A stretch of 36,644 nt of DNA from IMG/VR virus record IMGVR_UViG_3300002053_000049, positions 1 through 36,644 of that record; one strand, written 5' to 3'. This DNA is from a virus. Position 1 is the stretch's first letter; each line of letters opens with the position of its first letter. Made by a program: the position numbers and the translations under genes. The notes beneath the pieces were generated by a model that worked only from the letters and a program-made list of their open reading frames with translations, made no database searches and was not told the origin of the DNA. Below, piece after piece: positions 3,345 to 21,472 of the stretch.

Positions 3345-6300
3345 ATGCCATGGCACATACAAAAGACTGAAAGCGGCTATTACGTTGTAGACGACAACGG
3401 GAGGCGATATAGCGAAAAGCCGCTATCTAAGCGAATGGCAAGCCGGCAGCTGCGCGCTATTTATGCTTCGAAGGCAAAAGATCTCGGGATTGTGCCAATC
3501 CTTCAGCGCCGGCCTCTCTGGCGAACGAAACATCTTCCAGGTCAACATGATCAGAGTACGCATAGTCCTACCGGAAGGGCAGCTCAGAAGCCCCAGCCCA
3601 CCGATCAGCGCGCCCAGGATGAAAAGCCAGCCGTTGAAATGGAGCCGATGGAAGCCCATTTCGAGCCCAGCCGGTGGGATAAGATGGATATCCCAGCCAG
3701 GAAAGACGAATGGGAAAAACTGAGCGAGGCGGAGCGGGATAAACAAGCCAATGCAATCGAGGGGATCTATAAAAATCAAAACGAGATCCTGGCAGACCTG
3801 GGGGAACGCCCAGCCTTTAAGGCAGGTAAAGTTCGTGAAACCATGGCTGAACGCCTGGCAGGTGCCAAGGATCTAATACCCGAGCAATCCTATTCCGAGA
3901 TCGAAACCATGACAACCGGGCTCGATCAGCTGCTAGACCTGCAAGGCGTATCCGAAGAGCTGCGCTACAAAATCGGCATGGAGTCGACCGATGCACTAAT
4001 CGCCCAGGAAGTTGAAAGCCTCGGGCGGGTGCTGGGTGATCACGGTATGGCTCATATTGGCGGGAATCTGAATTTTGCAACCGAAATGTTGCAGCAGCAC
4101 CCAATGGAGGACTCAACCGATCAATTGGCCGGCGTGGCGATCGCTACGATCTTCCACGATACCGGATATCTCACGGATCCCAGCCGGGCTTTTTTGGATG
4201 AAGGTCACCCGCGTTGGAGTAAGCAGCATTACGAAGAGAATATCAAGCCAATGGTCGAAGAGGCGCTGGGTGGGGAGGTTGCGGAATCGGTTGGGCACAT
4301 GATAGCGACTCATGCAGATACGAATATCGATTTCGACAAAGATCCTTACGGATCATCCGTAAGACTCGCTGATAACCTGGCTCTCTTCCAAAAAGAGAAG
4401 CTGCCTGGATTACTGCGCTATGTCCCAGAAAACAAACAAGCACTAGAAGAATTTGCGACCGGGAAAGTGGATTTCGAGGTCGCAAAGAAGCGGGTTATCG
4501 ATAACGTAAACAAGAGCTCGAATAGTCCCAAGGTGAAAGAACACCTGCTGAAAGCTGCCAACGAGTTGACACCGATCACCCCCAAGCTCACCTTGGGGAT
4601 GTTTGCCGGCGAAATTGTTCGTTTCGTCTGGCAAGGTGATCACATGGCGGTTTATTTGCGCCGGCAGCCAGATTTCGATATGCTTCAGAAGGTTTTGGAC
4701 CTGGGACAGAAGCAATTCGACAAGCTGATCAAGACTTATAAAAACAAATACACTTTTGACGAAAATCTCTTCGAAGATAATGTGCTCGAGTTAATGGGGG
4801 AAGGTGGAAAGCCGGTTCTAACAGCTTATGTTACAGCTGCTGAAAAAGCTATGAGGGCTCTATTCAACCGATTTCGGATCCCATTCTGGCGATTGAAACA
4901 TCTTCCAGGCCAGCATGATCAAATGAGACACGCACCGAATAAAGGATCTGGCGGGGGAGGCGATCGACCGTCTTATCTAATGAGCGAGGAAGCACCGAAG
5001 CATATTGGGAATCCGACCAAACGCTGGTTATGGACCAAGACAGCCAATAAGATCAATGCCATAAACCAGGAAATCCACGATCTTACAAACGACTATCGGG
5101 AAAAGAAGAGCTCTTACACCTGGGGGCAGTTGAAAAAGATCACCGACCGGATCGAAGAGCTCATACAGCAGCGAGCGCCTATGCTTCAGGAATTGGAAAG
5201 CTGGGGTCAGATCCCGATGAAATTTTCTGGAAACCTAAACCTGGGAGGTACACCGCTCGGATCCCAGATCCCGAAGCCGGATACTACGTCCGGGCTGCCG
5301 ATGTTTAAGGACTTTCGCAATCCCGAGATCCCGGAAGAGTTGCTGATCCTGATGGAATATAAGCACCTACCAGGCCAGCACCCCCAGGAACGCCACGGCT
5401 GGCGCTACGGCCAGGGTGCCAGCTTCTCACGGATGCGCCGTATCGCCAGGCAGCAGGGCGGGGAAGAGTGGTCCGAGTTCAAAAAGCGATTTTCTGGGCG
5501 GGGAGGGCTGCCGAAAGAGCTTCACCAGGCACAAATAGCCGTAAGATCTAGGCTTCAGAAGATCGAGAAGATCAAGGATCCCAAGGAACGAATAGCAGCT
5601 CTGAATGAGTTGGATAAAGCAATTGACGCGGCCGGCCTGGCTGGGCAAAGCAAAGCCAGGGTTGCCCGAGCACGTTTAGAAGCGAAACGGCAGCTGAAAA
5701 AATCTCGCTCCGAGGCTGGGGCAAAATACCCCACGAAATACGGGCAAACCACCCAGGCTTTCGGAGCGGATCCCAACAAGTCTTACGAGCTGAAATATCG
5801 GATTATGAGCCTGGAAGATGCGATCGCAAGCAATAACGCAGCCGGGGAAGTCAATCCGAATTACCTTCAGGAATTGCAGCCCAGGAAGCGAGAACGTGCA
5901 GCCTCCGAGCAGCAGGTCGATAAGATAGCAAAAGAGCTGAATCCCGAAGCCTTGCTGACAGATTTCCATACCCTGGACAAAGGACCGATGATCGTTGGGG
6001 AAGATAACATGGTCGAAGCTGGGAACGGGCGGATCCTGGCGCTCCGCAGGGCGAAAGAAATGTATTCCGATAACTGGCAGAAATACCAGAGTTCGCTAAA
6101 AGAGCACCTGGCAGAGGCCGGCTTGACCCCCAAGGATATCGAGGGAATCAAGGATCCGATCTTAGTACGCGAGCGGGTGGACAAGGGGATCGATCGAGTG
6201 GAGTTCGCCAGGGAGTCAAACAAACGCCCTGGGCTCGATATGTCACCCCTCGAGCTGGCGATCGAAGATACTACCAGGATCTCGAGCGGGATGCTTGACA

Positions 6301-6992
6301 CTTTATCAGTTGGGGAAGAGCAAACAATCGACCAGGCGCTCCGCAGCCGGCAGAACAGCAGTTTCGTTTCGAAGTTCGTTGGATCTCTGGACACAAACGA
6401 ACGTGCCTCCATCCTACGGGAAGATGGAAGCCTGAATCGGATGGGTCTATGGCGAATTAAGGCTGCTATCTTCTCGAAGGTATTTCCTGGGGAAGCTGGG
6501 CAGCGCCTGGCGGATACGTTCCTGGAAAGCCTGGATAGCGGCATAAAGAATTTTGAAAGCGCCTTATCCGCTTCCCTCCCCCAGATTGCCAAGGCTGAAA
6601 ATCTCGTTCGGACCGGTCGAAGGAAAAAGGATCTATCGCTCGCTAAGGATTTCGCTAAGGCGATAGATATGTTAGCCAGGCTGCGAGAAAATGGGATCTC
6701 AGTTCAGGACTATCTAGCGCAAGGATCCTTATGGAAATCGGAGCTGAACGCTGATCAGCGCCGGCTATTGAGTTATTTCGATGGAGTCTCGAGATCTCCG
6801 AAGGTCATGCGAGAGTTTTTCCGCAAGTATGCCAATCTGGTATCGAGCGCAGTTCCTACGGGTCAAAGTACGATGATTGATCTTGATCTGGGTAGATCTG
6901 GGTTGCTGGATCGACTTATCCCTGATCAGCCCGAAGCGATACCCGTTGAAATTCCTACTACTGTCCCAGCTGGGCAAGGGGCTATGCTATGA
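3345..6992 (+). CDS. Polyvalent protein: HD phosphohydrolase-like domain plus ddrB/ParB-like domain
   Basis: A 1,215-residue mosaic protein. It starts with MPWHIQKTESGYYVVDDNG, a module often seen at the start of phage head-region proteins. Motif copies at residues 62-74 (KHLPGQHDQSTHS), 518-530 (KHLPGQHDQMRHA) and 673-685 (KHLPGQHPQERHG) divide it. Between the first two is an HD-superfamily domain: His233, the His271-Asp272 pair (FHDTGY), His323 and Asp343 (RLADN) match metal ligands, so a phosphodiesterase or nucleotidase is likely. Residues 531-672 are helical and unrecognised. After the third motif, about residues 800-1000 (LQPRKRERAASEQQV, VEAGNGRILALRRA at 890-903) resemble the ddrB/ParB-like domain known in phage and plasmid polyvalent proteins, which may bind nucleotide or DNA. 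ATG has a GGAG site seven bases upstream. It overlaps the next gene by four bases. A packaged, injected effector is inferred. Confidence 0.85.
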   Translation: MPWHIQKTESGYYVVDDNGRRYSEKPLSKRMASRQLRAIYASKAKDLGIVPILQRRPLWRTKHLPGQHDQSTHSPTGRAAQKPQPTDQRAQDEKPAVEMEPMEAHFEPSRWDKMDIPARKDEWEKLSEAERDKQANAIEGIYKNQNEILADLGERPAFKAGKVRETMAERLAGAKDLIPEQSYSEIETMTTGLDQLLDLQGVSEELRYKIGMESTDALIAQEVESLGRVLGDHGMAHIGGNLNFATEMLQQHPMEDSTDQLAGVAIATIFHDTGYLTDPSRAFLDEGHPRWSKQHYEENIKPMVEEALGGEVAESVGHMIATHADTNIDFDKDPYGSSVRLADNLALFQKEKLPGLLRYVPENKQALEEFATGKVDFEVAKKRVIDNVNKSSNSPKVKEHLLKAANELTPITPKLTLGMFAGEIVRFVWQGDHMAVYLRRQPDFDMLQKVLDLGQKQFDKLIKTYKNKYTFDENLFEDNVLELMGEGGKPVLTAYVTAAEKAMRALFNRFRIPFWRLKHLPGQHDQMRHAPNKGSGGGGDRPSYLMSEEAPKHIGNPTKRWLWTKTANKINAINQEIHDLTNDYREKKSSYTWGQLKKITDRIEELIQQRAPMLQELESWGQIPMKFSGNLNLGGTPLGSQIPKPDTTSGLPMFKDFRNPEIPEELLILMEYKHLPGQHPQERHGWRYGQGASFSRMRRIARQQGGEEWSEFKKRFSGRGGLPKELHQAQIAVRSRLQKIEKIKDPKERIAALNELDKAIDAAGLAGQSKARVARARLEAKRQLKKSRSEAGAKYPTKYGQTTQAFGADPNKSYELKYRIMSLEDAIASNNAAGEVNPNYLQELQPRKRERAASEQQVDKIAKELNPEALLTDFHTLDKGPMIVGEDNMVEAGNGRILALRRAKEMYSDNWQKYQSSLKEHLAEAGLTPKDIEGIKDPILVRERVDKGIDRVEFARESNKRPGLDMSPLELAIEDTTRISSGMLDTLSVGEEQTIDQALRSRQNSSFVSKFVGSLDTNERASILREDGSLNRMGLWRIKAAIFSKVFPGEAGQRLADTFLESLDSGIKNFESALSASLPQIAKAENLVRTGRRKKDLSLAKDFAKAIDMLARLRENGISVQDYLAQGSLWKSELNADQRRLLSYFDGVSRSPKVMREFFRKYANLVSSAVPTGQSTMIDLDLGRSGLLDRLIPDQPEAIPVEIPTTVPAGQGAML
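3528..3566 (+). repeat. His-rich linker motif, copy 4
   Basis: Encodes KHLPGQHDQSTHS followed by a Pro/Gln/Ala-rich linker, before the HD domain. Confidence 0.9.
4896..4934 (+). repeat. His-rich linker motif, copy 5
   Basis: Encodes KHLPGQHDQMRHA followed by a Gly-rich linker (GSGGGG), after the HD domain. Confidence 0.9.
5361..5399 (+). repeat. His-rich linker motif, copy 6
   Basis: Encodes KHLPGQHPQERHG, the most divergent copy, before the ddrB/ParB-like half. The three His keep their five-residue spacing. Confidence 0.88.
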
Positions 6993-9715: not shown

Positions 9716-10438
9716 ATGCGTATCTTGTGTTTTACATCCGATAAACACCTGGCAGCTCTGCCGGCGTTTATCCACCTGCATAGCAAATATTGGGGTCATC
9801 CGGTCGATTTCGTAGGGTTTACACCCCCAGAGTTCGATATCCCGAAACCCCATCGCTTCCATTCTATCGGGAAGTTCGAAGATTATCCCCTGGGTAAATG
9901 GTCAAACGCTGCCAGGCTGGCAGTTGAAACCTTGGTGAAAGATGAAGCCTTTATCTATACGATGGATGATTTTTGGATCGTTCGGCAGGTAAATCATGGG
10001 CAGATCGTGAGATTATGGGAGTTGCTGAACGACTCTCCCCCGATTGCAAGGATCGATCTTACAACCGACCGGCTCTATGCTGCTGGCGTGTATAACTTTG
10101 GATATCTAGACGAAATCGATCTAATCAGTAACACAAGTCCAGTTCCTTATGCCCTGAGCTTGCAAGCCGGGATCTGGCGAAAGGATGCTTTTCTAAAATA
10201 CGTTCTTCCCAATGAAACCCCCCATGATGTTGAAATCATGGGCAGCGCCAGAATGAATAACGATAGCGCGCTGATCCTGGGCACCCGCCAGGCGCCAATA
10301 AAATACCTGATTGCAATCCAGTTCGGGAAATTGGCTCTGGACGGTGGATACCAGGTCCCAGAGATCTTGTTTCGGGATCTGGAAGAGTTGACGAATAAGG
10401 GGTTATTAAATGGGCTATTTGCAACAGTCCCCGCATAG
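9716..10438 (+). CDS. Putative glycosyltransferase (GT-A-like), 240 aa
   Basis: Starts MRILCFTSDKHLAALPAF after a GGAAGG site. It has a short acidic metal-site-like motif (FIYTMDDFWI, residues about 79-88), followed by blocks that pattern-match a family of phage and bacterial sugar transferases: LSLQAGIWRKDAFLKYVLPNETP (about 152-174), then DVEIMG. In that family the stretch around 'lQ..IW....L...l...E.PW.fE' forms the acceptor side. The gene overlaps the following DegT gene by 29 bases, and lies with two other sugar-modification genes between the capsid and connector genes. Acting on capsid, tail or host glycan is inference. Donor and acceptor cannot be read from the sequence. Confidence 0.6.
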   Translation: MRILCFTSDKHLAALPAFIHLHSKYWGHPVDFVGFTPPEFDIPKPHRFHSIGKFEDYPLGKWSNAARLAVETLVKDEAFIYTMDDFWIVRQVNHGQIVRLWELLNDSPPIARIDLTTDRLYAAGVYNFGYLDEIDLISNTSPVPYALSLQAGIWRKDAFLKYVLPNETPHDVEIMGSARMNNDSALILGTRQAPIKYLIAIQFGKLALDGGYQVPEILFRDLEELTNKGLLNGLFATVPA

Positions 10439-11651
10439 GGTCACGCTGGGCACGTTCGAAGCTAATTATCGAACGCGTGAGCTGATCAATGAAGTATTGG
10501 ATTCCGGGTGGATCTCTTACGGTCCCAAGTCCTTACAGTTTGAACAGAAATTCGCCAGTATTCACCAGCGAGATTATGCAATTCTCTCCAATTCAGGCAC
10601 ATCCAGCCTGTTAGTTGCTTTACAGGCGCTAAAAGAGCTTCACGGCTGGGAAGATGGGTCTGAAGTTTTCGTTCCGGCTACAACGTTCGTTGCTACGGCA
10701 AATATTGTCATTCATAATCAGCTTACCCCGGTGTTTGTGGATATCGAAGCGGATACTTATAACATGGATCCGCAGCAGCTCGAGGCAGCCATAAAGAAGC
10801 ACCCCAGGGCGAAAGCCGTTATTCCCGTACATCTGTTTGGGCAAATGGCAAATATGACCGAAATTGCCTTCCTGGCAGATAAATATGGTCTGAAGATCAT
10901 CGAGGACAGTTGCGAAACGATGTTCGTAGCTCATTATGGGCGGGTTTGTGGCTCCTGGGGGGATATCGGATGCTTTTCGACCTATAACGCCCACCTGCTG
11001 ACAACCGGAGTCGGCGGCTTTTCGATCACGGATAATCCAGACCTGGCAGCTCGAATGAGATCCTTAGTAAATCATGGGCTCGAGATCGATCACCTTAACC
11101 CAGGCGAGAATTTCGCTCCGCAGCCGGCACCAAATAGGCAGTTCAGCTTCGGATCGATCGGTCATAGTTTCAGGATTACGGAGCTGGAAGCTGCGATCGG
11201 GCTCGCACAGCTCGAGAATTGGTCTTACATGCTCAGGATCCGAAACCGGAACGCTAAACACCTGGGCGCTGGGCTGAAAATAATCAACAATTGGGCTGGA
11301 CCATGCTTCAGGATCCCCCAGGTTATGGATGGTAACGGTCATGCCTGGATGATGTATCCGATTCTTACGCTCCGATTGCCAAAAGATGTAGTTATGCGAG
11401 AGTTGGCAGATGCTCAGATCGAGACTCGAGATATGCTTCCCCTGCTATCGCAGCCGGCTTATAAAGATGTTGGCTGGAAAAACTATCCGATCAGCCGTTG
11501 GGTTTATGAGTGTGGCTTCTATGTTGGGTGTCATCACGCCTTAGATCCTGATGCTATCCAATATGTGGTCCACGTTCTAAGCGAAACCGTTGGGAAATAT
11601 CAAGATATTTACGAGGTGGCCCATGAGAGTCCGGCTCTATCCCACGCCTGA
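10410..11651 (+). CDS. DegT/DnrJ/EryC1-family enzyme with His in place of the PLP lysine
   Basis: A 413-residue type I fold PLP-family sugar enzyme. Typical blocks are SGWISYGPKSLQFEQKFA (start), LSNSGTSSLLVALQAL (PLP phosphate loop), EVFVPATTFVATAN, DIEADTYNMDP, KAVIPVHLFGQMA, and IIEDSCETM (the Asp that pairs with the PLP ring nitrogen). The internal-aldimine block reads CFSTYNAHLLTTGVGGF, so residue 195 is His where aminotransferases carry Lys. The same change is known in the ColD and RfbH/E1-type sugar dehydratases of this family, so a dehydratase (or a non-catalytic paralogue) is more likely than an aminotransferase. It starts after AAGGGG, 29 bases inside the previous gene. It probably makes or alters an activated sugar used by the flanking transferases. 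Confidence 0.8.
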   Translation: MGYLQQSPHRVTLGTFEANYRTRELINEVLDSGWISYGPKSLQFEQKFASIHQRDYAILSNSGTSSLLVALQALKELHGWEDGSEVFVPATTFVATANIVIHNQLTPVFVDIEADTYNMDPQQLEAAIKKHPRAKAVIPVHLFGQMANMTEIAFLADKYGLKIIEDSCETMFVAHYGRVCGSWGDIGCFSTYNAHLLTTGVGGFSITDNPDLAARMRSLVNHGLEIDHLNPGENFAPQPAPNRQFSFGSIGHSFRITELEAAIGLAQLENWSYMLRIRNRNAKHLGAGLKIINNWAGPCFRIPQVMDGNGHAWMMYPILTLRLPKDVVMRELADAQIETRDMLPLLSQPAYKDVGWKNYPISRWVYECGFYVGCHHALDPDAIQYVVHVLSETVGKYQDIYEVAHESPALSHA

Positions 11652-14451
11652 GCAATCAGATCCGGCCTCGGGGATCGGGCGGGTGGTCATGGCGCAATAT
11701 AAACACCTGCCAGAGTTCGATATCCAGCTGGTGGAAGATCCCAGGAAAGCGGATCTTATCGCAGCCCATACCCAGACGTTCGGGCAGCGAGTCGATGTGA
11801 TTCATTGCCACGGTCTTTATTGGACCGGTGATCCAGGATCTGGAAATTACTCCAATTGGCATACTTCGGTTAATACTGAAATCATTGCAGCCATTCGCCA
11901 GGCAGAAGCCTTTTCGGTGCCCAGCGAGTGGGTTTCAATGCCCTTCAGGCGGGATATGCTGCTTAATCCGCAGGTGATCGGCCACGGTATTGACCTGGAA
12001 GATTGGGAGCCCCAGAAAAAGCGTGGTAAGTTCGTGCTATGGAATAAGAATCGTTCGGCTGATGTATGCGATCCTATGCCGGCGTATGTCCTTTCTAAGC
12101 GTAATATTCCGGTTTGGAGTACGTTTGCACCGGAAGAGGCCGCCCAGGATGGGGATTTCAGGCTCTTAGGGCGGCAGGATTGGGATACCATGCGCCGGAT
12201 CATTCACCAGGCGCAAGTTTATCTTGCGACCACAAAGGAAACCTTCGGGATAGGCACCCTCGAAGCTATGGCGGCCGGCGTTCCTGTCCTGGGTTTCGAT
12301 TGGGGAGGCACCCGAGATCTGGTTACCAGTGGGGTCGAAGGGATTCTGGTAGATCCATACGATTATGATGCTCTGGAAGATGGGTATCATCGGATCATAG
12401 ATAAGCGCCGGCAGTTCAGCCAGGCAGCCCGAGCGAAAGCGGAGCTCTATTCCTGGCAGAACGTGATCGGTCAATACGCTGATTTATATCGGAGTTCAGC
12501 CGGCAAGCGGGACACCGGATCCGTGGCAGTTGTCATACCCTGTCATAATTATGAGAAATGGGTCGCTGAAGCCGTTGAAAGTGTACTTCGCCAGAGTTAT
12601 CCGGTCGAAGAAATAGTCGTGATCGATGACGGCAGCACCGATAACAGCCTGGCGATCCTTCAGGCTCGATTCGGTGAGAATCCCAGAGTTCGAATTGTAG
12701 ACACAAAAAATCGGGGGGTTGCAGCAGCTCGGAATATGGGAATCGGTATGACTAGCGCCGATTTCGTTGTGTGCCTAGATGCTGATGATCGGCTGGGCGA
12801 ATCGTTTGTTGCTCATTGCCGGCAAGCTCTTCTGGAAGATCCGCAGCTGGGAATCGCCTACACTGGATTATGCTTTATCAAAGCGGATGGGACAAACGAG
12901 CCTTACGATGCCTGGCCTCCGGCTTTTGATTGGAAAGTCCAGAGCACCCCCAACAATCCCCCTTATAACTGCGTTCCTTCGGCTGCCATGTTTCGGCGTA
13001 AGATGTGGATCCGAGCGGGTGGATATCGCCAGGAATACGCCCCGGGTGAAGATGCGGAGTTTTGGACCAATGGCTTAAGTACAGGCTTTACGGCTCGAAG
13101 GATCACAAAAGCCAATCTTTTCGAGTATCGAGCGCACCCAGGCAGCGCAAGCAAGACAAAGAAATATAAGCCGATTGACGCCTGGAAGCCCTGGATGAGA
13201 GATAGGATCTTCCCCCTGGGAGTGCCCACGGATCGAGCGCCAGAAATACAGTCCTATTCCCAGCCTAATATATCGGTGATTATCCCGATCGGTCCTGATC
13301 ATGCTTACCTGGCGAGTTCAGCAATCGAATCGCTGATGGGTCAAACCTTCCGAAATTGGGAGTTGATCACTGTAAACGATACGGGTAAAAAACTAGATCT
13401 ATCAAGAGCGCCTTACCGATTCCCATTCGCCAGGCAGTTCGAAACAGCCGGCACCTTGGGCGCTGGGGCAGCTCGAAACCTGGGCGCTAAACATGCTCGA
13501 GCGCCTTGGATCTTATTTCTAGATGCTGATGATTACCTGGCTCCTGATGCACTAAACAAGCTCCTGTCAGCAAGCCAGGAAGGCTATTTCGTGTATAGCG
13601 ATTGGGTGACCGGGAAGGATATCCATAAGGCACCCGAGTTCGATTGTGAGAGCTATTCAGAGCTCTTACCTATCCCAATAACCAGCCTGATCGAACGATC
13701 GGCTTTCGAAGATCTTGGCGGTTTCGATGAAAATCTGCCGGCATGGGAAGATTGGGATCTGTTCTTAGGGCTAGTAAGCAATGGTTTATGTGGGAAGCGA
13801 GTTCCCGAACCTTTGCTAGTGTATAGGGTTGATACTGGATCCAGGCGCAAACGCGCCAAATCCATTTCCCCGGCGCTAAAAGCCAGGATCCAGGGAAAGC
13901 ACATTGGAGGCAATAAAATGTCATGTGGAGGTTGTGGAAACGGAGGTAATGCAGTTATGGAAGCAAAAAGAGAATTTGATGGACAGGCAGCGCCCAGATC
14001 GGTATCTTCGGGCAGCGGATTCGTTCGGATTGAGTATTCCGGCGTGAGAGTCGGCGGAGTGACCTATTTTGGGAGATCCGGCCGATCGTATCGCTTCGGG
14101 AATAACCCGATCGAGCGGATTAATGATGTGCACCCGGAAGATGTGGACGTTTTTCTCGGGCTGGAAGGATTCCGAGTTCTGGGGGTGTCCACGCCTACGG
14201 CTATCGAGGCAGAAGAGCCGGCACCAATCCAGATGACCGATGAAGAGCTCGAGGCTGAAAATGCAGCACTCGAAGCGGAGCTGGCAAAACTGGAAGGTGA
14301 TCAGTTGGAAGTTCAGTTCGCTTCCCCAGCTGCTGAAAAGCTGGCTGCTGAAAACAATCTGGGAGTCCTTCTGGAGATACAAGGACAGATCGGAAGCGGC
14401 AAAGACGGCGCTTTTACGGTCGCTGATATTCGCCAGATTCTAGATGCGTAG
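11623..14451 (+). CDS. GT-B + two GT2 glycosyltransferase fused in frame to a head protein
   Basis: I choose the ATG at 11623, after GAGG and 29 bases inside the DegT gene, giving 942 residues. Residues 1-290 are GT4-like GT-B (KETFGIGTLEAMAAGVPVLG at 205-224 with the donor-site Glu). Residues 300-540 are a GT2 domain (VAVVIPCHNYEKWV at 301, LDADD near 385-389, GED at 475-477). Residues 550-740 are a second GT2 domain (ISVIIPIGPD at 550, LDADD near 633-637, WEDWDLF near 708). From residue 766 the frame continues without a stop into a different protein (MSCGGCGNGG...), listed separately. Three transferase units in one chain suggest that a short oligosaccharide is built in steps. Whether the fusion is made as one protein is unclear; the internal start has its own ribosome binding site. 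Confidence 0.8.
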   Translation: MRVRLYPTPEQSDPASGIGRVVMAQYKHLPEFDIQLVEDPRKADLIAAHTQTFGQRVDVIHCHGLYWTGDPGSGNYSNWHTSVNTEIIAAIRQAEAFSVPSEWVSMPFRRDMLLNPQVIGHGIDLEDWEPQKKRGKFVLWNKNRSADVCDPMPAYVLSKRNIPVWSTFAPEEAAQDGDFRLLGRQDWDTMRRIIHQAQVYLATTKETFGIGTLEAMAAGVPVLGFDWGGTRDLVTSGVEGILVDPYDYDALEDGYHRIIDKRRQFSQAARAKAELYSWQNVIGQYADLYRSSAGKRDTGSVAVVIPCHNYEKWVAEAVESVLRQSYPVEEIVVIDDGSTDNSLAILQARFGENPRVRIVDTKNRGVAAARNMGIGMTSADFVVCLDADDRLGESFVAHCRQALLEDPQLGIAYTGLCFIKADGTNEPYDAWPPAFDWKVQSTPNNPPYNCVPSAAMFRRKMWIRAGGYRQEYAPGEDAEFWTNGLSTGFTARRITKANLFEYRAHPGSASKTKKYKPIDAWKPWMRDRIFPLGVPTDRAPEIQSYSQPNISVIIPIGPDHAYLASSAIESLMGQTFRNWELITVNDTGKKLDLSRAPYRFPFARQFETAGTLGAGAARNLGAKHARAPWILFLDADDYLAPDALNKLLSASQEGYFVYSDWVTGKDIHKAPEFDCESYSELLPIPITSLIERSAFEDLGGFDENLPAWEDWDLFLGLVSNGLCGKRVPEPLLVYRVDTGSRRKRAKSISPALKARIQGKHIGGNKMSCGGCGNGGNAVMEAKREFDGQAAPRSVSSGSGFVRIEYSGVRVGGVTYFGRSGRSYRFGNNPIERINDVHPEDVDVFLGLEGFRVLGVSTPTAIEAEEPAPIQMTDEELEAENAALEAELAKLEGDQLEVQFASPAAEKLAAENNLGVLLEIQGQIGSGKDGAFTVADIRQILDA
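13918..14451 (+). CDS. Head-associated protein with YTG/RYRFG block and E3-binding-like tail, 177 aa
   Basis: An internal ATG preceded by GGAGG (13906-13910) opens a protein starting MSCGGCGNGG. Cys/Gly-rich starts like this are frequent in small phage head genes. The block FVRIEYSGVRVGGVTYFGRSGRSYRFGNN... is a small beta domain that recurs near the capsid genes of siphophages. A long acidic helix (EELEAENAALEAELAKLEGD) follows. The last 44 residues (SPAAEKLAAENN ... GKDGAFTVADIRQIL) closely follow the layout of the peripheral-subunit (E3)-binding domain, a protein-binding module. It could be a decoration or joining protein. The reading frame is continuous with the upstream transferase, so both a fused and a free form are possible. 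Confidence 0.65.
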   Translation: MSCGGCGNGGNAVMEAKREFDGQAAPRSVSSGSGFVRIEYSGVRVGGVTYFGRSGRSYRFGNNPIERINDVHPEDVDVFLGLEGFRVLGVSTPTAIEAEEPAPIQMTDEELEAENAALEAELAKLEGDQLEVQFASPAAEKLAAENNLGVLLEIQGQIGSGKDGAFTVADIRQILDA

Positions 14452-16004: not shown

Positions 16005-17531
16005 ATGACGAATCTTAATGCTGATGAGGTCATTACCTCTAAACACAAGAGGGCTTTTATCCAGTTCGGCGGTCCACGCCCTAATATTGACGTAAAGTAT
16101 GCCGGCCAGGATGCCCAATATCTGTTTATCGATGGTGTATCAGACCCTGAGAGTGGCGGGGTTGATCCTATCTATGTGCCAGATCATCGCCGGCAGGGTG
16201 CCTATCGCTTGGTCGGTCGCCAGATCTCACCCCCGGATCTGGCAAACGCTACCCTGAATATGCTCGAGAAACACGGCGGAATCCCCCGGCAGCTTCTGAA
16301 GGAAGGTTGTATCCTGAATGTCTACGAGCTCACCGGGGATTGCAGGGATCTTTCGGATTTCCTTGGCGGGTGGTCCGATTATGTCCTGATCTATTCCAAT
16401 GCGATCATTACTGACAAAGACCTGGGTACCAGGACTCAGATGGACGCAGACGAAGCTATCCAGGACGGGATCTCGGTTGTGCTGGGTGATATCTATCCAG
16501 TTGGAGCCCTGGCGTTCGGCGCTGAAGCTGCGGCGTTGATTGATCGGGAAGTTACTGGAGTCACGTTTGGAAGTCTAGTTTCCTGCCAATGTGACAATTC
16601 CAGCGACTATATCTATGCTTGCTCCAAGTCAAGCGGTGCTGGAAGCCCTGGGCTTCCCTCGGAAGTTCATTATTCGGTTGACGGTGGTAATAACTGGTCA
16701 AGTGTTAACATCGATGGAATCGGAGCGACCGAGGACGCGATCGCTATCGGGGTCGTGGGTCAATATCTGGTAGTTCTTTCGGATGGAGATGCTTACTACT
16801 ATGCCACGATCAATCGAAAGACCGGCGTTCCTGGCACCTTCACGAAGGTTACAACCGGGATCGTTGCAGCTGGCACCCCTCGGGATTTCTTTGTCCTATC
16901 CGCTCGGGAAGTATGGTTCGTTGGGGATGGTGGATATATCTACAAGTCTACAAACATCCTGAACGGCGTTACCGTTGTATCAGCTGGCGATGCGACAAGC
17001 GAGGATCTGAATCGGGTGAAAGCGGCCGATAATGTGATCCTGATCGGCGGCGATAATGGAGCGGTTGTACTGAGTCTGAATCGCGGCGCTACGTTTGCCA
17101 CTACCACGGCCGCGCCTTCGGCTTCGAACATTCTGGCAATTGGAGTTCTGGACCAGGATCGCTTCTGGGCTGGGGATTCCGCTGGGAATCTATGGTATAG
17201 CTTGACCCAAGGTGAAAGCTGGGTGCAATACGAGTTCCCAGGCGATGGAGCCGGCCAGGTGGATGATATCGTTTGGGTGAATGATGAAGTCGGGTTTTTT
17301 GCTCATCGATCAGCAGCCCCAGCCGGCAGTATCTGGGCAACCTGGGATGGTGGAAAGAGTTGGACAAACACCAGCCCCAGGCTTAACAATTTTCCAACGG
17401 TTGACTATATCAGCCGGATTGCTTACCCTGAAGGATCGAACGGGATTGCAGCGAATAATATCGCTCTGGCAGGTCTGGCAGGTGACGGCACCGATGGAAT
17501 CTTACTTTTAGGTGTGGCAGCCGTTGTATAA
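16005..17531 (+). CDS. Major tail (tube) protein with carboxyl Asp-box beta-propeller
   Basis: Place before the tail assembly chaperones and tape measure, and a strong leader shared with the capsid gene, identify this as the tail tube subunit. The first ~180 residues form the tube part (FIQFGGPRPNIDVKYAGQDAQ, EKHGGIPRQLLKEGCILNVYELTG, IYSNAIITDKDLGTRT). Residues ~185-508 carry repeated Asp-box (S-x-D/N-x-G-x-x-W) motifs: SVDGGNNWSSV, SLNRGATFATT, SLTQGESWVQY, TWDGGKSWTN, as in BNR and Ycf48-like propellers. The propeller would decorate the outside of the tail tube, possibly binding a glycan or polymer. The enzyme residues of sialidases are not evident, so binding is favoured over catalysis. 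A tube protein this large is unusual. Confidence 0.75.
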   Translation: MTNLNADEVITSKHKRAFIQFGGPRPNIDVKYAGQDAQYLFIDGVSDPESGGVDPIYVPDHRRQGAYRLVGRQISPPDLANATLNMLEKHGGIPRQLLKEGCILNVYELTGDCRDLSDFLGGWSDYVLIYSNAIITDKDLGTRTQMDADEAIQDGISVVLGDIYPVGALAFGAEAAALIDREVTGVTFGSLVSCQCDNSSDYIYACSKSSGAGSPGLPSEVHYSVDGGNNWSSVNIDGIGATEDAIAIGVVGQYLVVLSDGDAYYYATINRKTGVPGTFTKVTTGIVAAGTPRDFFVLSAREVWFVGDGGYIYKSTNILNGVTVVSAGDATSEDLNRVKAADNVILIGGDNGAVVLSLNRGATFATTTAAPSASNILAIGVLDQDRFWAGDSAGNLWYSLTQGESWVQYEFPGDGAGQVDDIVWVNDEVGFFAHRSAAPAGSIWATWDGGKSWTNTSPRLNNFPTVDYISRIAYPEGSNGIAANNIALAGLAGDGTDGILLLGVAAVV

Positions 17532-17619: not shown

Positions 17620-18111
17620 ATGGGCACAAAAGTTAATCCGCTCACCCCTCATACCGTGAAGGATACCGGCGCGGTCCTAATGATCCGCAAAGTATCCCCG
17701 CTCTTGGCGCTCGAGATCCGAAACACGGTCATAAAGCCCCAGCCTCCCACGCAGCAGGTTGATTATGGGGATGGGAAGATCGTAGAAGAGCCGAACGCAG
17801 CTCACCCGGATTATAAGATCGCTCTTCAGTATTACGAAGAAGAAGTTACCGATCGGACTAATCGCATGGTGCTACGGCGAGGGGTCCACCTTGACTTAAC
17901 CGATGAAATGAAGGCGGATGTCAAAGAGCTGCGAAAAGAGTGGCAAGAAGAGCTAGGCGTAGATATTCCCTATAACGATCAATACGTTTACATTTGCTAT
18001 ATCGCCCTGGGAACGAACGAAGATTTTCAAGAGCTCTTGGAAGCCATTCTAAGCAGATCTGGAATAAGCGGGCCGGCATTGGAGGCCGCCCAAGATACCT
18101 TAAAAAGCTAA
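17620..18111 (+). CDS. Tail assembly chaperone (gpG-like), 163 aa
   Basis: The gene sits between tail tube and tape measure, the fixed place of the tail assembly chaperone. GGAG lies nine bases before the ATG. The protein is acidic and helical (EDFQELLEAILSRSGISGPALEAAQDTLKS at the end), with no membrane segment. It ends in TTA AAA AGC TAA. A second frame carries a long open stretch immediately after, so this gene probably makes a short form (163 residues) and, by +1 slippage at the A run, a longer gpGT-like form. Members of this family wrap the tape measure during tail assembly. Confidence 0.75.
   Translation: MGTKVNPLTPHTVKDTGAVLMIRKVSPLLALEIRNTVIKPQPPTQQVDYGDGKIVEEPNAAHPDYKIALQYYEEEVTDRTNRMVLRRGVHLDLTDEMKADVKELRKEWQEELGVDIPYNDQYVYICYIALGTNEDFQELLEAILSRSGISGPALEAAQDTLKS
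18102..18106 (+). other. Candidate +1 programmed frameshift site
   Basis: The A5 run in TTAAAAAGCTAA lets lysyl-tRNA on AAA (18103-18105) move one base to AAA (18104-18106). In the destination frame a stop lies at 18101-18103. In the starting frame the stop lies at 18109-18111. The shift can occur only in this few-base gap, which is where the run is. The downstream frame lacks an early ATG or GTG. Confidence 0.65.
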
Positions 18112-18382
18112 GTATCAGGGTCGGGATCTTTTCCGAGAGAGAGTCCGGGGATCCGGGATCTCTTATTCGATTTTTGCCGAACAATGCCTGGCTGCTGTCT
18201 GGGCTCATTACAAGATCGAAGAGTATTTCGATCTCGATGGGCAGCAACAGGCGCTGATCTTGCAGCTTTATCGAATGGAAAGAAAAATCGAAAATGTTTT
18301 GGCGCGTGATTCCGCTAAGAAATCTAAGCGAGCTTCGAAGGGGTCTAGTATGCCCCCCAGGGCTCCAAGGCGAAGGCGATAA
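18104..18382 (+). CDS. Tail assembly chaperone second part (gpT-like), made by frameshift
   Basis: An open stretch of 92 codons that starts right after a stop at 18101-18103 and ends with TAA joined to the tape measure ATG (TAAATG). It encodes YQGRDLFRERVRGSG, then AHYKIEEYFDLDGQQQ, RMERKIENVLARDSAKK and a very basic tail of Arg/Lys (residues ~78-92). There is no ATG or GTG near its start, and the first ATG lies deep inside, so it is best read as the carboxyl part of a frameshift product of 253 residues with the preceding gene. This is the lambda G/GT arrangement with a +1 instead of a -1 shift. Confidence 0.65.
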   Translation, partial: KAKYQGRDLFRERVRGSGISYSIFAEQCLAAVWAHYKIEEYFDLDGQQQALILQLYRMERKIENVLARDSAKKSKRASKGSSMPPRAPRRRR

Positions 18383-21300
18383 ATGGGTCTAAAACGAACG
18401 GGTGTGCAGCTAGTAGCCGAAGGATCCGATAGATTCTATCGGGATATGAAGGCTGCCAACGATCAAATAAGGCAGATCGGACCATCGGCAGGAGTCGCTA
18501 ATAAAGGTCTATCGCTTGCGAGTTCGGTTGCCCTGGGTTTCGGTGCTACCCTGGGCAATGTTGCTTTTAACGCAGTTCGGAATTTCATCGGCGGGATCCG
18601 AAACGTTGGATCCGAAGCGATAATGAGCTCTGCCCGAGTTCAGGAAATGAATCAGGTGGTTTATCTTCTGGGCTCGAGAGCCGGCAAAACAGCTGATGAA
18701 ATGGACGCGCTTATCGGCAAGGTGAAGGACTATGGTATCCGAACGGATGTTGCACAAAATCTTGTGCAGCAGTTCACCAGGTACGAGCTTGATCTAGCGA
18801 AAGCTGCGGATCTCGCCAGAGTCGCACAAGATACGGCTGTCCTGGCGATGAAAGACAGCTCGGAAGAGCTCGATCACATACTTTATGGTATCCAGACCTA
18901 TAACACTGAAGTTTTACGAACGGCTGGGCTGAATATCAACCTGCAAGATAGTTTCAAACGCTATGCTGATGAAGTGGGGAAATCGACCGAAGCCCTAACG
19001 GCTAACGATAAAATGCAAGCGGCTCTAAACGCTGTGCTTTTGGAAGGGTCGCGTAATGCCGGAATTTATGAAGCCTCGATGAAATCAGCCGGCAAGCAGC
19101 TCCGCAGCCTTACAGGACGCGAGATCCCGGAGCTTATTCGAGCCCTGGGAGATCCTTTCCAGGATGCACTATATAACATCGTTTCAGGTGCTCGAAGCGT
19201 AGTTTCGAGCTTTCGGGAAGCATTAGAAGCGCCCGAGGATCTGGCACAAAAGTTCGGGACATCGAGCGAATTTATCCGTAAAAACTTCGAGGAAACCCAA
19301 TCGGCAGCCGGATCCTTACGTAACGAGTTAATGCGTGTAGGGGCGGTGTTTGCCGTGTTCACCGAAGGTTTGAAACGAGGGGCTGAAACCGTTACACCTG
19401 CGGTTATTCAGGCGCTGGCAGGTGGGGCACGTACTTTTCTAGACTTTGCTGAAAAAGCGTTTAGCTGGGGTTTCAATACGATTAGTGAGTTCGCCATGGG
19501 AATCATCGAAGGTGCTGCCCAGGTGCTTACATCTGCGATGAATTGGATCTCTGGCTTGCTCGAAAGCTGGCTGGGACCGGGATCTCCGCCTAGAGTTGCC
19601 CCGAATATCGATAAATGGGGTCTAAAAGCAATGACCGAGTTTATGCGTGGAATGACCCAGGCGGATTTCGGCGCATTAAAGGGGATCCAAGGACCACTTA
19701 ATCAGGCATTACAGCTGATGGTCAGATCTGGCAGCATGAGCGCCAGGCAGAGCGCCGATATTTACCGATCGATTTCCGCTCAGATCTCGAAAGCCCTGGC
19801 AACGGGAGTCGGGGATGAAAATATCTTTTCCCGGATACAGAAAACAGCCGGTCCATACGGAGCCGAAATTGCAGAGCTGGCGAAACGTCAATTAGCACTT
19901 GCCCGAGCTACAAACGCGGTAAAAGAAGCTGAAAAGGCGCTCGAGGATGCTAGAAAACGGCAGTTCGCAGCCAATAAAAAGACAAACAGCCTGATCAAAG
20001 AATATAACGCCATGGTAAAGGCCGGCGCCAGCCGGGAAGCCCTAGCGGGTAAGATGGCCTTGATAAAAGCCTCGGAGGCCGAAGAGCAAGCGGCTTCGGA
20101 TGCCGCTGCCCAGGCGGAAAAAGAGCTGGAAACCAGAGCCCAGGGCCTGGATGATCTACAAGAGCAAGTTCAATTACAAAACGAATTGGTTTCCCAGCTC
20201 TTAGATCTGGGTCAAATGGATCTCGCTGCGCAATTGGCAGATGCAGCCAAGGGGGCAGGGGGAGCCCTGGAAGATCTCGCAGCCAAAGCCGGCGCGGTAG
20301 GGGGATCGATCACAAACAAGCTAAACCAGGCGTTTGAAAATCTGAAAAATGACGTAAAGAAGAAATGGGAAGAGATGCTGGCTCCATTGCGTGAGCGGTG
20401 GGACGAAGAGGTCCAACCGAAGCTCGATAATTTGTCGAACGCATGGAGTCGCTTTACAGAAAATATCGGGAGTGCCTGGGACACCTACGCCCAACCGGCA
20501 GTAGACGCCTTGAAAAGCGTTATAGATCCCGATTGGGCAAATAAGCTCGGGGAAATGGTCGGTCCAATCCTGTTATTTGCAGGTGCTTTTCTGGTGGTTT
20601 CGTTCGTGATTTCTACCGTGCTGGGTTTTATCCTAAGTATTCCTGGCGCAATAGCTTTATTATTGGTCACCATAGCTTTGTTTGGGCAAAAAGCAACCGA
20701 AACTGTGGGAATGATCGTTTTTATTATTCAGTATTATGCCGGCTTGATCTTGACTCGGATCGGAGAGTTTGTCCAGGGGATAATCGATTTTTTTGTGGAT
20801 CTTTGGCAGAGGCTGGTAGGCGGATCGATCATCCCGGAAATGATGCAAGCCATTTATGATTCGATCTCCGGTTTTTTGACCAGTATTTACGAGTTTTGGA
20901 CCGGGATCTTCGATGATATCCTGATCTGGTTTAATAACAATTTTTACGCTCCATTTATCGAGAAGCTGGAAGCCCTGCAAACGCGCTGGAATGAAATCTG
21001 GCAGGGAATCGTTACTTTCCTGGAAGAAGAGATCAAAAAGCCTTTGCTTCAGTTTTATACCGATGTGGTCCAGAAGTTCATCGATGGTTTTGAAAGCCTG
21101 AAAACGAAGGTTCAAAAGTTGAAAGAGCTATTCGGGGAGTTGTGGGAGGCGATAAAATCAGGCACCTTACCGGATTGGTTCTGGTCGCTGATCGGTCACT
21201 CGCCTTCCCCACTGGCGATCGGCACGAAATACGCAGCTCAGGAAATGAAACGATATATTTCTCAGGTCAAAGATCTTCAGAAGGCCACGCGGGGATTTAC

Positions 21301-21472
21301 GCCTGGGGATGTGATTATGGGTATGCCTGGGGCTTATGTGATAGAGGGAGCCAGGCAGGAAATCAACGATAACCGCCAAGTAAACATGGGAGGGGTGACC
21401 ATAAAGAACGGCTGGGATGAAACGATCTTCGAAGGCAGGATGCGCCGGATCCTCACGGAGTCGCACCGATGA
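18383..21472 (+). CDS. Tail tape measure protein, 1,029 aa
   Basis: The longest single-module tail protein, directly after the chaperone frames. Long helical segments dominate (residues ~470-690, rich in A/E/K/Q, with predicted coiled coils). A strongly hydrophobic pair of segments (LLFAGAFLVVSFVISTVLGFIL and IPGAIALLLVTIALFG, near residues 730-770) is followed by more hydrophobic stretches to ~860. The carboxyl end (GDVIMGMPGAYVIEGARQEIN) is short and polar. At about 0.15 nm per residue the tail would be about 155 nm, a family rule of thumb only. The gene ends in an ATGA overlap with the next gene. Confidence 0.85.
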   Translation: MGLKRTGVQLVAEGSDRFYRDMKAANDQIRQIGPSAGVANKGLSLASSVALGFGATLGNVAFNAVRNFIGGIRNVGSEAIMSSARVQEMNQVVYLLGSRAGKTADEMDALIGKVKDYGIRTDVAQNLVQQFTRYELDLAKAADLARVAQDTAVLAMKDSSEELDHILYGIQTYNTEVLRTAGLNINLQDSFKRYADEVGKSTEALTANDKMQAALNAVLLEGSRNAGIYEASMKSAGKQLRSLTGREIPELIRALGDPFQDALYNIVSGARSVVSSFREALEAPEDLAQKFGTSSEFIRKNFEETQSAAGSLRNELMRVGAVFAVFTEGLKRGAETVTPAVIQALAGGARTFLDFAEKAFSWGFNTISEFAMGIIEGAAQVLTSAMNWISGLLESWLGPGSPPRVAPNIDKWGLKAMTEFMRGMTQADFGALKGIQGPLNQALQLMVRSGSMSARQSADIYRSISAQISKALATGVGDENIFSRIQKTAGPYGAEIAELAKRQLALARATNAVKEAEKALEDARKRQFAANKKTNSLIKEYNAMVKAGASREALAGKMALIKASEAEEQAASDAAAQAEKELETRAQGLDDLQEQVQLQNELVSQLLDLGQMDLAAQLADAAKGAGGALEDLAAKAGAVGGSITNKLNQAFENLKNDVKKKWEEMLAPLRERWDEEVQPKLDNLSNAWSRFTENIGSAWDTYAQPAVDALKSVIDPDWANKLGEMVGPILLFAGAFLVVSFVISTVLGFILSIPGAIALLLVTIALFGQKATETVGMIVFIIQYYAGLILTRIGEFVQGIIDFFVDLWQRLVGGSIIPEMMQAIYDSISGFLTSIYEFWTGIFDDILIWFNNNFYAPFIEKLEALQTRWNEIWQGIVTFLEEEIKKPLLQFYTDVVQKFIDGFESLKTKVQKLKELFGELWEAIKSGTLPDWFWSLIGHSPSPLAIGTKYAAQEMKRYISQVKDLQKATRGFTPGDVIMGMPGAYVIEGARQEINDNRQVNMGGVTIKNGWDETIFEGRMRRILTESHR

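Follow-up and report, generated by a model that had tools for sequence, protein, structure and literature searches.

A candidate programmed +1 frameshift in the tail assembly chaperone gene of an uncultivated phage, with a putative UUU_C slip site conserved in its relatives and probably replaced by AAA_A

A family of tail assembly chaperones made by frameshifting, which includes gpG/gpGT of phage lambda, was reportedly described by Xu et al. in 2004. In lambda, a pair of overlapping frames immediately before the tape measure gene gives a short product and a frameshifted fusion, the second frame lacking a start codon, and the same arrangement is found in the DNA studied here, a metagenomic contig of an uncultivated phage (virus record IMGVR_UViG_3300002053_000049, positions 1-36,644, the whole 36.6 kb of which we call the window). 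Lambda, however, shifts by -1 (PMC5009743), whereas the window phage would shift by +1 through re-pairing of a single transfer RNA (tRNA), and its chaperone frames have no detectable similarity to curated chaperone families. Tailed phage frameshifts include -1, -2 and +1 (PMC5009743); among actinobacteriophage training sites, forward motifs account for 350 of 2718, and +1 shifts follow no general sequence rule (PMC10885494). A first-pass annotation of the window had called +1 uncommon for tail chaperones, which fits both the published record and our own survey of contigs.

Closer to the window in direction are the Listeria phages PSA, A118 and A500, and SPP1, which also use +1 in a tail gene, although there it is the major tail protein, with the slip at CCC_UGA or CCC_UAA (PMC5009743, PMC6316719); in the window the stop lies two codons past the slip, and in its relatives up to 90 nucleotides away. 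The chaperone of SPP1 itself has been put down as -1 (PMC5009743, PMC6316719). In cluster F1 mycobacteriophages (Fruitloop, FJ174690; Karhdo, PMC10793310) the tail assembly chaperone that precedes the tape measure is annotated with a +1 shift, no motif being stated, and we saw no in-frame TTT_C near the frame-1 stop of Fruitloop. The closest likeness in the slip site comes from influenza A virus, where PA-X is made by a +1 frameshift at UCC_UUU_CGU, the favoured model being a move of Phe-tRNA from UUU to UUC, and where the authors foresaw that UUU_C sites would form a wider class (PMC3498833). The relatives of the window have UUU_C at their aligned slip codon, with the exact UCC_UUU_C in three and an arginine codon next (CGG or CGC) in four, although PA-X belongs to a eukaryotic virus, its protein is unrelated, and the window itself has AAA_A. 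In the papers covered, which are not the whole literature, no phage tail chaperone with a conserved +1 site of the UUU_C type came to light, and hence we make no claim of priority. Tail-chaperone frameshifts at -1, -2 and +1 being known, what is new here would be the lineage of the family, its UUU_C ancestor and the migration of the site by one codon. On balance we lean towards the view that these uncultivated tailed phages form a family in which the chaperone fusion is made by a +1 slip at a conserved UUU_C, the motif of PA-X, that the motif may have arisen again in another chaperone family, and that the site moved by one codon to AAA_A in the window, with direction and register kept.

In the window, the two frames, the tape measure gene and the gene in the tail-tube position lie on the plus strand. 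Frame 1 (17620-18111), with an ATG start and GGAG about 7 nucleotides upstream, encodes 163 residues, the putative short, gpG-like product, and its 3' end reads GAT ACC TTA AAA AGC TAA, the last codon being its stop (18109-18111). Frame 2 (18104-18382, stop at 18380-18382), the putative gpT-like C-terminal extension of 92 residues, has no start of its own, is bounded upstream by a TAA stop at 18101-18103, and lies at +1, or equivalently -2, relative to frame 1. The base right after its stop is the first of the ATG of the tail length tape measure gene (18383-21472; 1029 residues; phrog_167, E = 4e-12, and other tape-measure families), so that the pair stands directly upstream of it and fits the gpG/gpGT plan. 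These bounds agree to the base with those of the first-pass annotation, as does the length of the fusion, which on recomputation is again 253 residues, 91 of them C-terminal residues from frame 2. The early ATG or GTG that it had found missing in frame 2 is indeed missing: past the slip, the first ATG or GTG is at codon 56 and a TTG at codon 51, none of them with a Shine-Dalgarno-like sequence. Given the two stops, frame 2 can be reached from just three codons in the ribosomal peptidyl site (P-site), TTA, AAA and AGC, of which AAA (18103) alone re-pairs perfectly one base forward, within the A5 run at 18102-18106; the lysyl slip from AAA to AAA, proposed earlier as the only good +1 re-pairing in this gap, is borne out among these three. 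The proposed site, AAA_A, is at 18103-18106 and is followed by GCU; no other codon in this gap is +1-slippery.

The short chaperone frames found no relatives among viral contigs or phage records in protein searches, and scans of bacterial and archaeal genomes gave none either. These frames being too diverged for direct search, the tape measure was taken as bait: a search with its N-terminus gave the locus L002 first and then two sets of 80 loci, from which hidden Markov models (HMMs) of frames 1 and 2 picked L013, L015, L016, L017, L022, L040 and L077, and the frame-1 HMM alone picked L118. L016 being the same contig as L002, we count eight relatives, all from public viral contigs. All eight have two overlapping frames ahead of the tape measure gene with the second at +1, which makes nine of nine loci with the window; frame 2 stays open in the nine, and in none of the eight relatives was it found with its own start, the outcome that the first-pass annotation had named as one that would refute the +1 reading. 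The fusions, of 240-291 residues, align across the junction. Leave-one-out HMMs recovered frame 1 from each of the nine loci and frame 2 from six of the relatives, and the homology of frame 1 of the window to the other relatives is clear by this measure (E = 1e-21), although protein identity to the window is 14-26% for every relative but L118.

In contrast, about 60 non-redundant contigs of the same tape-measure family were called -1 by a rough codon-usage decoder, many of them being -1 by inspection as well, and one of them (L004) has the textbook -1 site GAG GAA AAA AAC TAA. The decoder run did not include L118, and its +1 labels for L005, L020, L053, L057 and L105 proved on inspection to be tube-to-chaperone steps or misses. 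Because all the relatives are +1, and -1 prevails in the remaining contigs that have this tape measure family, the direction of the shift is, by this comparison, a property of this chaperone family. In a tree of the tape measures, +1 and -1 loci are not cleanly separated, a pattern that exchange of chaperone and tape measure genes would be expected to give.

The overlap of the two frames ranges from 17 to 152 nucleotides among the relatives, yet one aligned codon is TTT in all eight, followed by a pyrimidine in each: TTT_C in seven (TCC_TTT_CAG in L016, TCC_TTT_CGG in L022, TCC_TTT_CTC in L017, TTG_TTT_CGG in L015, TTG_TTT_CGC in L077, ATG_TTT_CGG in L040 and ACG_TTT_CAG in L118) and TTT_T in one (ATG_TTT_TGG in L013). 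Phe stands at the slip column in both the frame-1 and the frame-2 alignments, and in L016, L017, L022, L077 and L118 the overlap has no +1-slippery codon other than TTT_C. Over the same loci, Phe is encoded by TTT and TTC at 271 to 270, with TTT_C at 4.4% of the Phe codons outside the site, and at 14-26% protein identity, L118 excepted, synonymous choices should long have been randomised. The chance of TTT_C in seven of eight would be about 3e-9 for independent sequences, a figure that kinship weakens. A likeness of L002 to the window at the frame-1 stop, AA-AGC-TAR, was dropped, given that this place lies within the conserved frame-2 domain in L002, and also because a TTT_C 69 nucleotides upstream is the only slippery codon there. 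Two loci of another chaperone family (L055, 3480-4053; L052, 46-619) also have their second frame at +1, and their overlap contains CGA_TTT_CCA; in the frame-2 region they are similar to L020 and L091, which shift by -1, and they may represent a second origin of a UUU_C +1 site.

It is the nearest relative, L118, that connects the UUU_C codon with the A5 run of the window. Frame 1 is 46% identical between the two over 159 residues and frame 2 is 38% identical over 81 residues, ungapped (E = 3e-19 for this pair), and 191 nucleotides of DNA align with no gap, so that ACG TTT CAG AGT TGA GTA TCA of L118 stands against ACC TTA AAA AGC TAA GTA TCA of the window, with the frame-1 stop, TGA in L118, at the same place. 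Upstream of the site, 10 of 21 residues are identical in frame 1 versus 3 of 20 in each other frame; downstream, 17 of 41 are identical in frame 2, with no stops, versus 11 and 10 of 41 in the others. As judged from this pair, coding conservation passes from frame 1 to frame 2 at the slip site. The UUA codon of the window (18100-18102) is, by this DNA alignment and by that of the fusions, the homologue of the UUU slip codon of the relatives, and the bounding TAA at 18101-18103 is homologous to the frame-2 TTC of L118. Where the relatives have UUU_C, the window has UUA AAA A; most likely, the ancestral slip codon UUU_C became UUA_A, with loss of that slip position, while the next codon now gives AAA_A in the same direction and register, and the A5 slip site is most likely a derived replacement in the window phage. 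The +1 reading of the first-pass annotation, which had proposed aligning both frames with homologous pairs, is supported by that alignment in nine of nine loci, and the eight relatives add to it a lineage, a probable UUU_C ancestor and a probable migration of one codon. The run could also slip by -1 (A_AAA), which would add about 50 third-frame residues (18102-18257); this putative tail has no conservation to L118.

We consider it very probable that the two frames encode a tail assembly chaperone of the gpG/gpGT type, expressed through a programmed +1 ribosomal frameshift, and several points that weigh against this should be kept in mind. UUU_C has been lost in the window itself, and the +1-slippery codons make up 5.8% of the codons of its genome (AAA followed by a purine, 1.3%), so that at least one among the three available would occur by chance in about 16% of cases; the AAA_A site on its own is modest, suggestive and not compelling, while the comparative evidence lifts the case well beyond chance. 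An HMM from the relatives other than L118 does not reach frame 2 of the window, which has diverged too far. The aminoacyl-site (A-site) codon AGC is not rare in the genome (15.9 per 1000) and no strong pause is evident, and folding of the nine sites gave no conserved downstream structure (z-scores -1.8 to +1.3). The chaperone frames match no curated chaperone family among PHROG and Pfam profiles, and we infer the chaperone assignment from where the frames lie, from their layout as a pair and from a weak match in fold. For the latter, an AlphaFold model of frame 1 (predicted local distance difference test, pLDDT, 84; N-terminal strands and a helical C-terminal part) gave weak matches in BFVD, among them entries that bear the name tail assembly chaperone (probability 0.63 and 0.35), and no solved-structure match in the PDB. 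A fold match to U5Q195 (Bacillus phage Staley) was set aside, because it could not be assigned to a gene with confidence; for one candidate gene the hhalign match was weak (E = 0.004, probability 9%). An upstream Shine-Dalgarno-like stimulator was also looked for, and none was seen at prfB distance from the slip site. Stimulators likewise seem to be missing from PA-X and from some tailed-phage shifts (PMC5009743).

The same fusion could be reached by other routes. The ribosome might slip on UUA instead of AAA, given that UUA corresponds in position exactly to the UUU slip codon, but we regard this as unlikely, since the Leu anticodon would meet a middle-position mismatch on UAA, versus the perfect move from AAA to AAA, and UUA lies outside the class of +1-slippery codons. 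The junction peptide DTLK-AKYQGR, offered in the first-pass annotation as a check by mass spectrometry, is expected from the AAA slip, but a slip on UUA would give the identical residues, and so it does not discriminate between the two codons. A very unlikely explanation is an error of sequencing or assembly, in which the real run would be A4 and the frames one uninterrupted reading frame of 253 residues; the record is, of course, a metagenomic contig, and removal of one A would join the frames in the same register, but A5 is a short run, two frames are present in all eight relatives, and the gap-free alignment of L118 across the site, with its frame-1 stop in the same column, speaks against an indel error.

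Transcriptional slippage at A5, giving mixed mRNAs, is scarcely credible, because the homopolymer at the junction is short for polymerase slippage and the homologous site of the relatives has just three T's. Equally hard to believe is that frame 2 is translated separately or not at all, as two genes or a decayed one: the frames are indeed separate and frame 2 diverges fast, but in the window the early part of frame 2 offers no start codon that has a ribosome site, the frame is conserved with respect to L118 and open in nine loci, and the overlap has been retained. A -2 shift into the same frame, as used by the Mu chaperone (PMC5009743), would add one residue (DTLKKAKY), and it is highly improbable, for re-pairing on the UUU_C of the relatives is perfect after a +1 move and poor after a -2 move, and in the window a -2 move would set Lys-tRNA on UAA.

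For the +1 slip on AAA, we propose the following. Most ribosomes would terminate at 18109 and release the 163-residue short form, whereas in a minority, with Lys-tRNA in the P-site on AAA (18103-18105) and AGC in the A-site, the tRNA would slip forward to AAA (18104-18106), GCU would be read next, and the 253-residue long form would follow. By analogy with lambda, the short form may coat the tape measure protein and the long form recruit tail-tube subunits, their ratio being set by the frequency of the slip. The DNA directly shows the frames, the place of the site, and a +1 relation that has been conserved. That the slip occurs, how often, and what the two products do, are what we infer. Direction and position would have been inherited from an ancestor slipping one codon earlier at UUU_C, where Phe-tRNA would move from UUU to UUC, and where the relatives appear still to slip; Phe-tRNA would read UUC better than UUU, and the prfB tests cited by PMC10885494 place UUU with the most slippery codons when a stop follows.

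Regarding the neighbouring genes, the one in the tail-tube position (16005-17531) has C-terminal BNR/YCF48-like (Sortilin-like) beta-propeller repeats (Pfam PF15902, E = 2e-5; PF14870, E = 1e-4), and a similar-sized gene occupies this position in L016, L015, L017, L022 and L118; it would be unusual for a tail tube protein to carry a propeller domain. Between the head and tail genes lies a sugar-modification island (9716-14451) with an aminotransferase (phrog_3139, E = 4e-57) and a large two-domain glycosyltransferase (GT2+GT4), and amid the virion genes a protein of 1215 residues (3345-6992) has a ddrB-like ParB domain (Pfam, E = 2e-30).

Few +1 shifts have been anchored by evolution, and here nine diverged loci share a +1 slip position, that of the window lying one codon on, which has been kept with neither an adjacent stop codon nor a conserved RNA structure. 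UUU_C can accordingly be tested as a minimal bacterial +1 signal, in parallel to influenza PA-X. The window would be a case of a UUU_C site being replaced by AAA_A and, if this is true, it provides a natural series of one shift site supplanting another, while annotators gain a trial rule for tail chaperone genes that lack a -1 heptamer.
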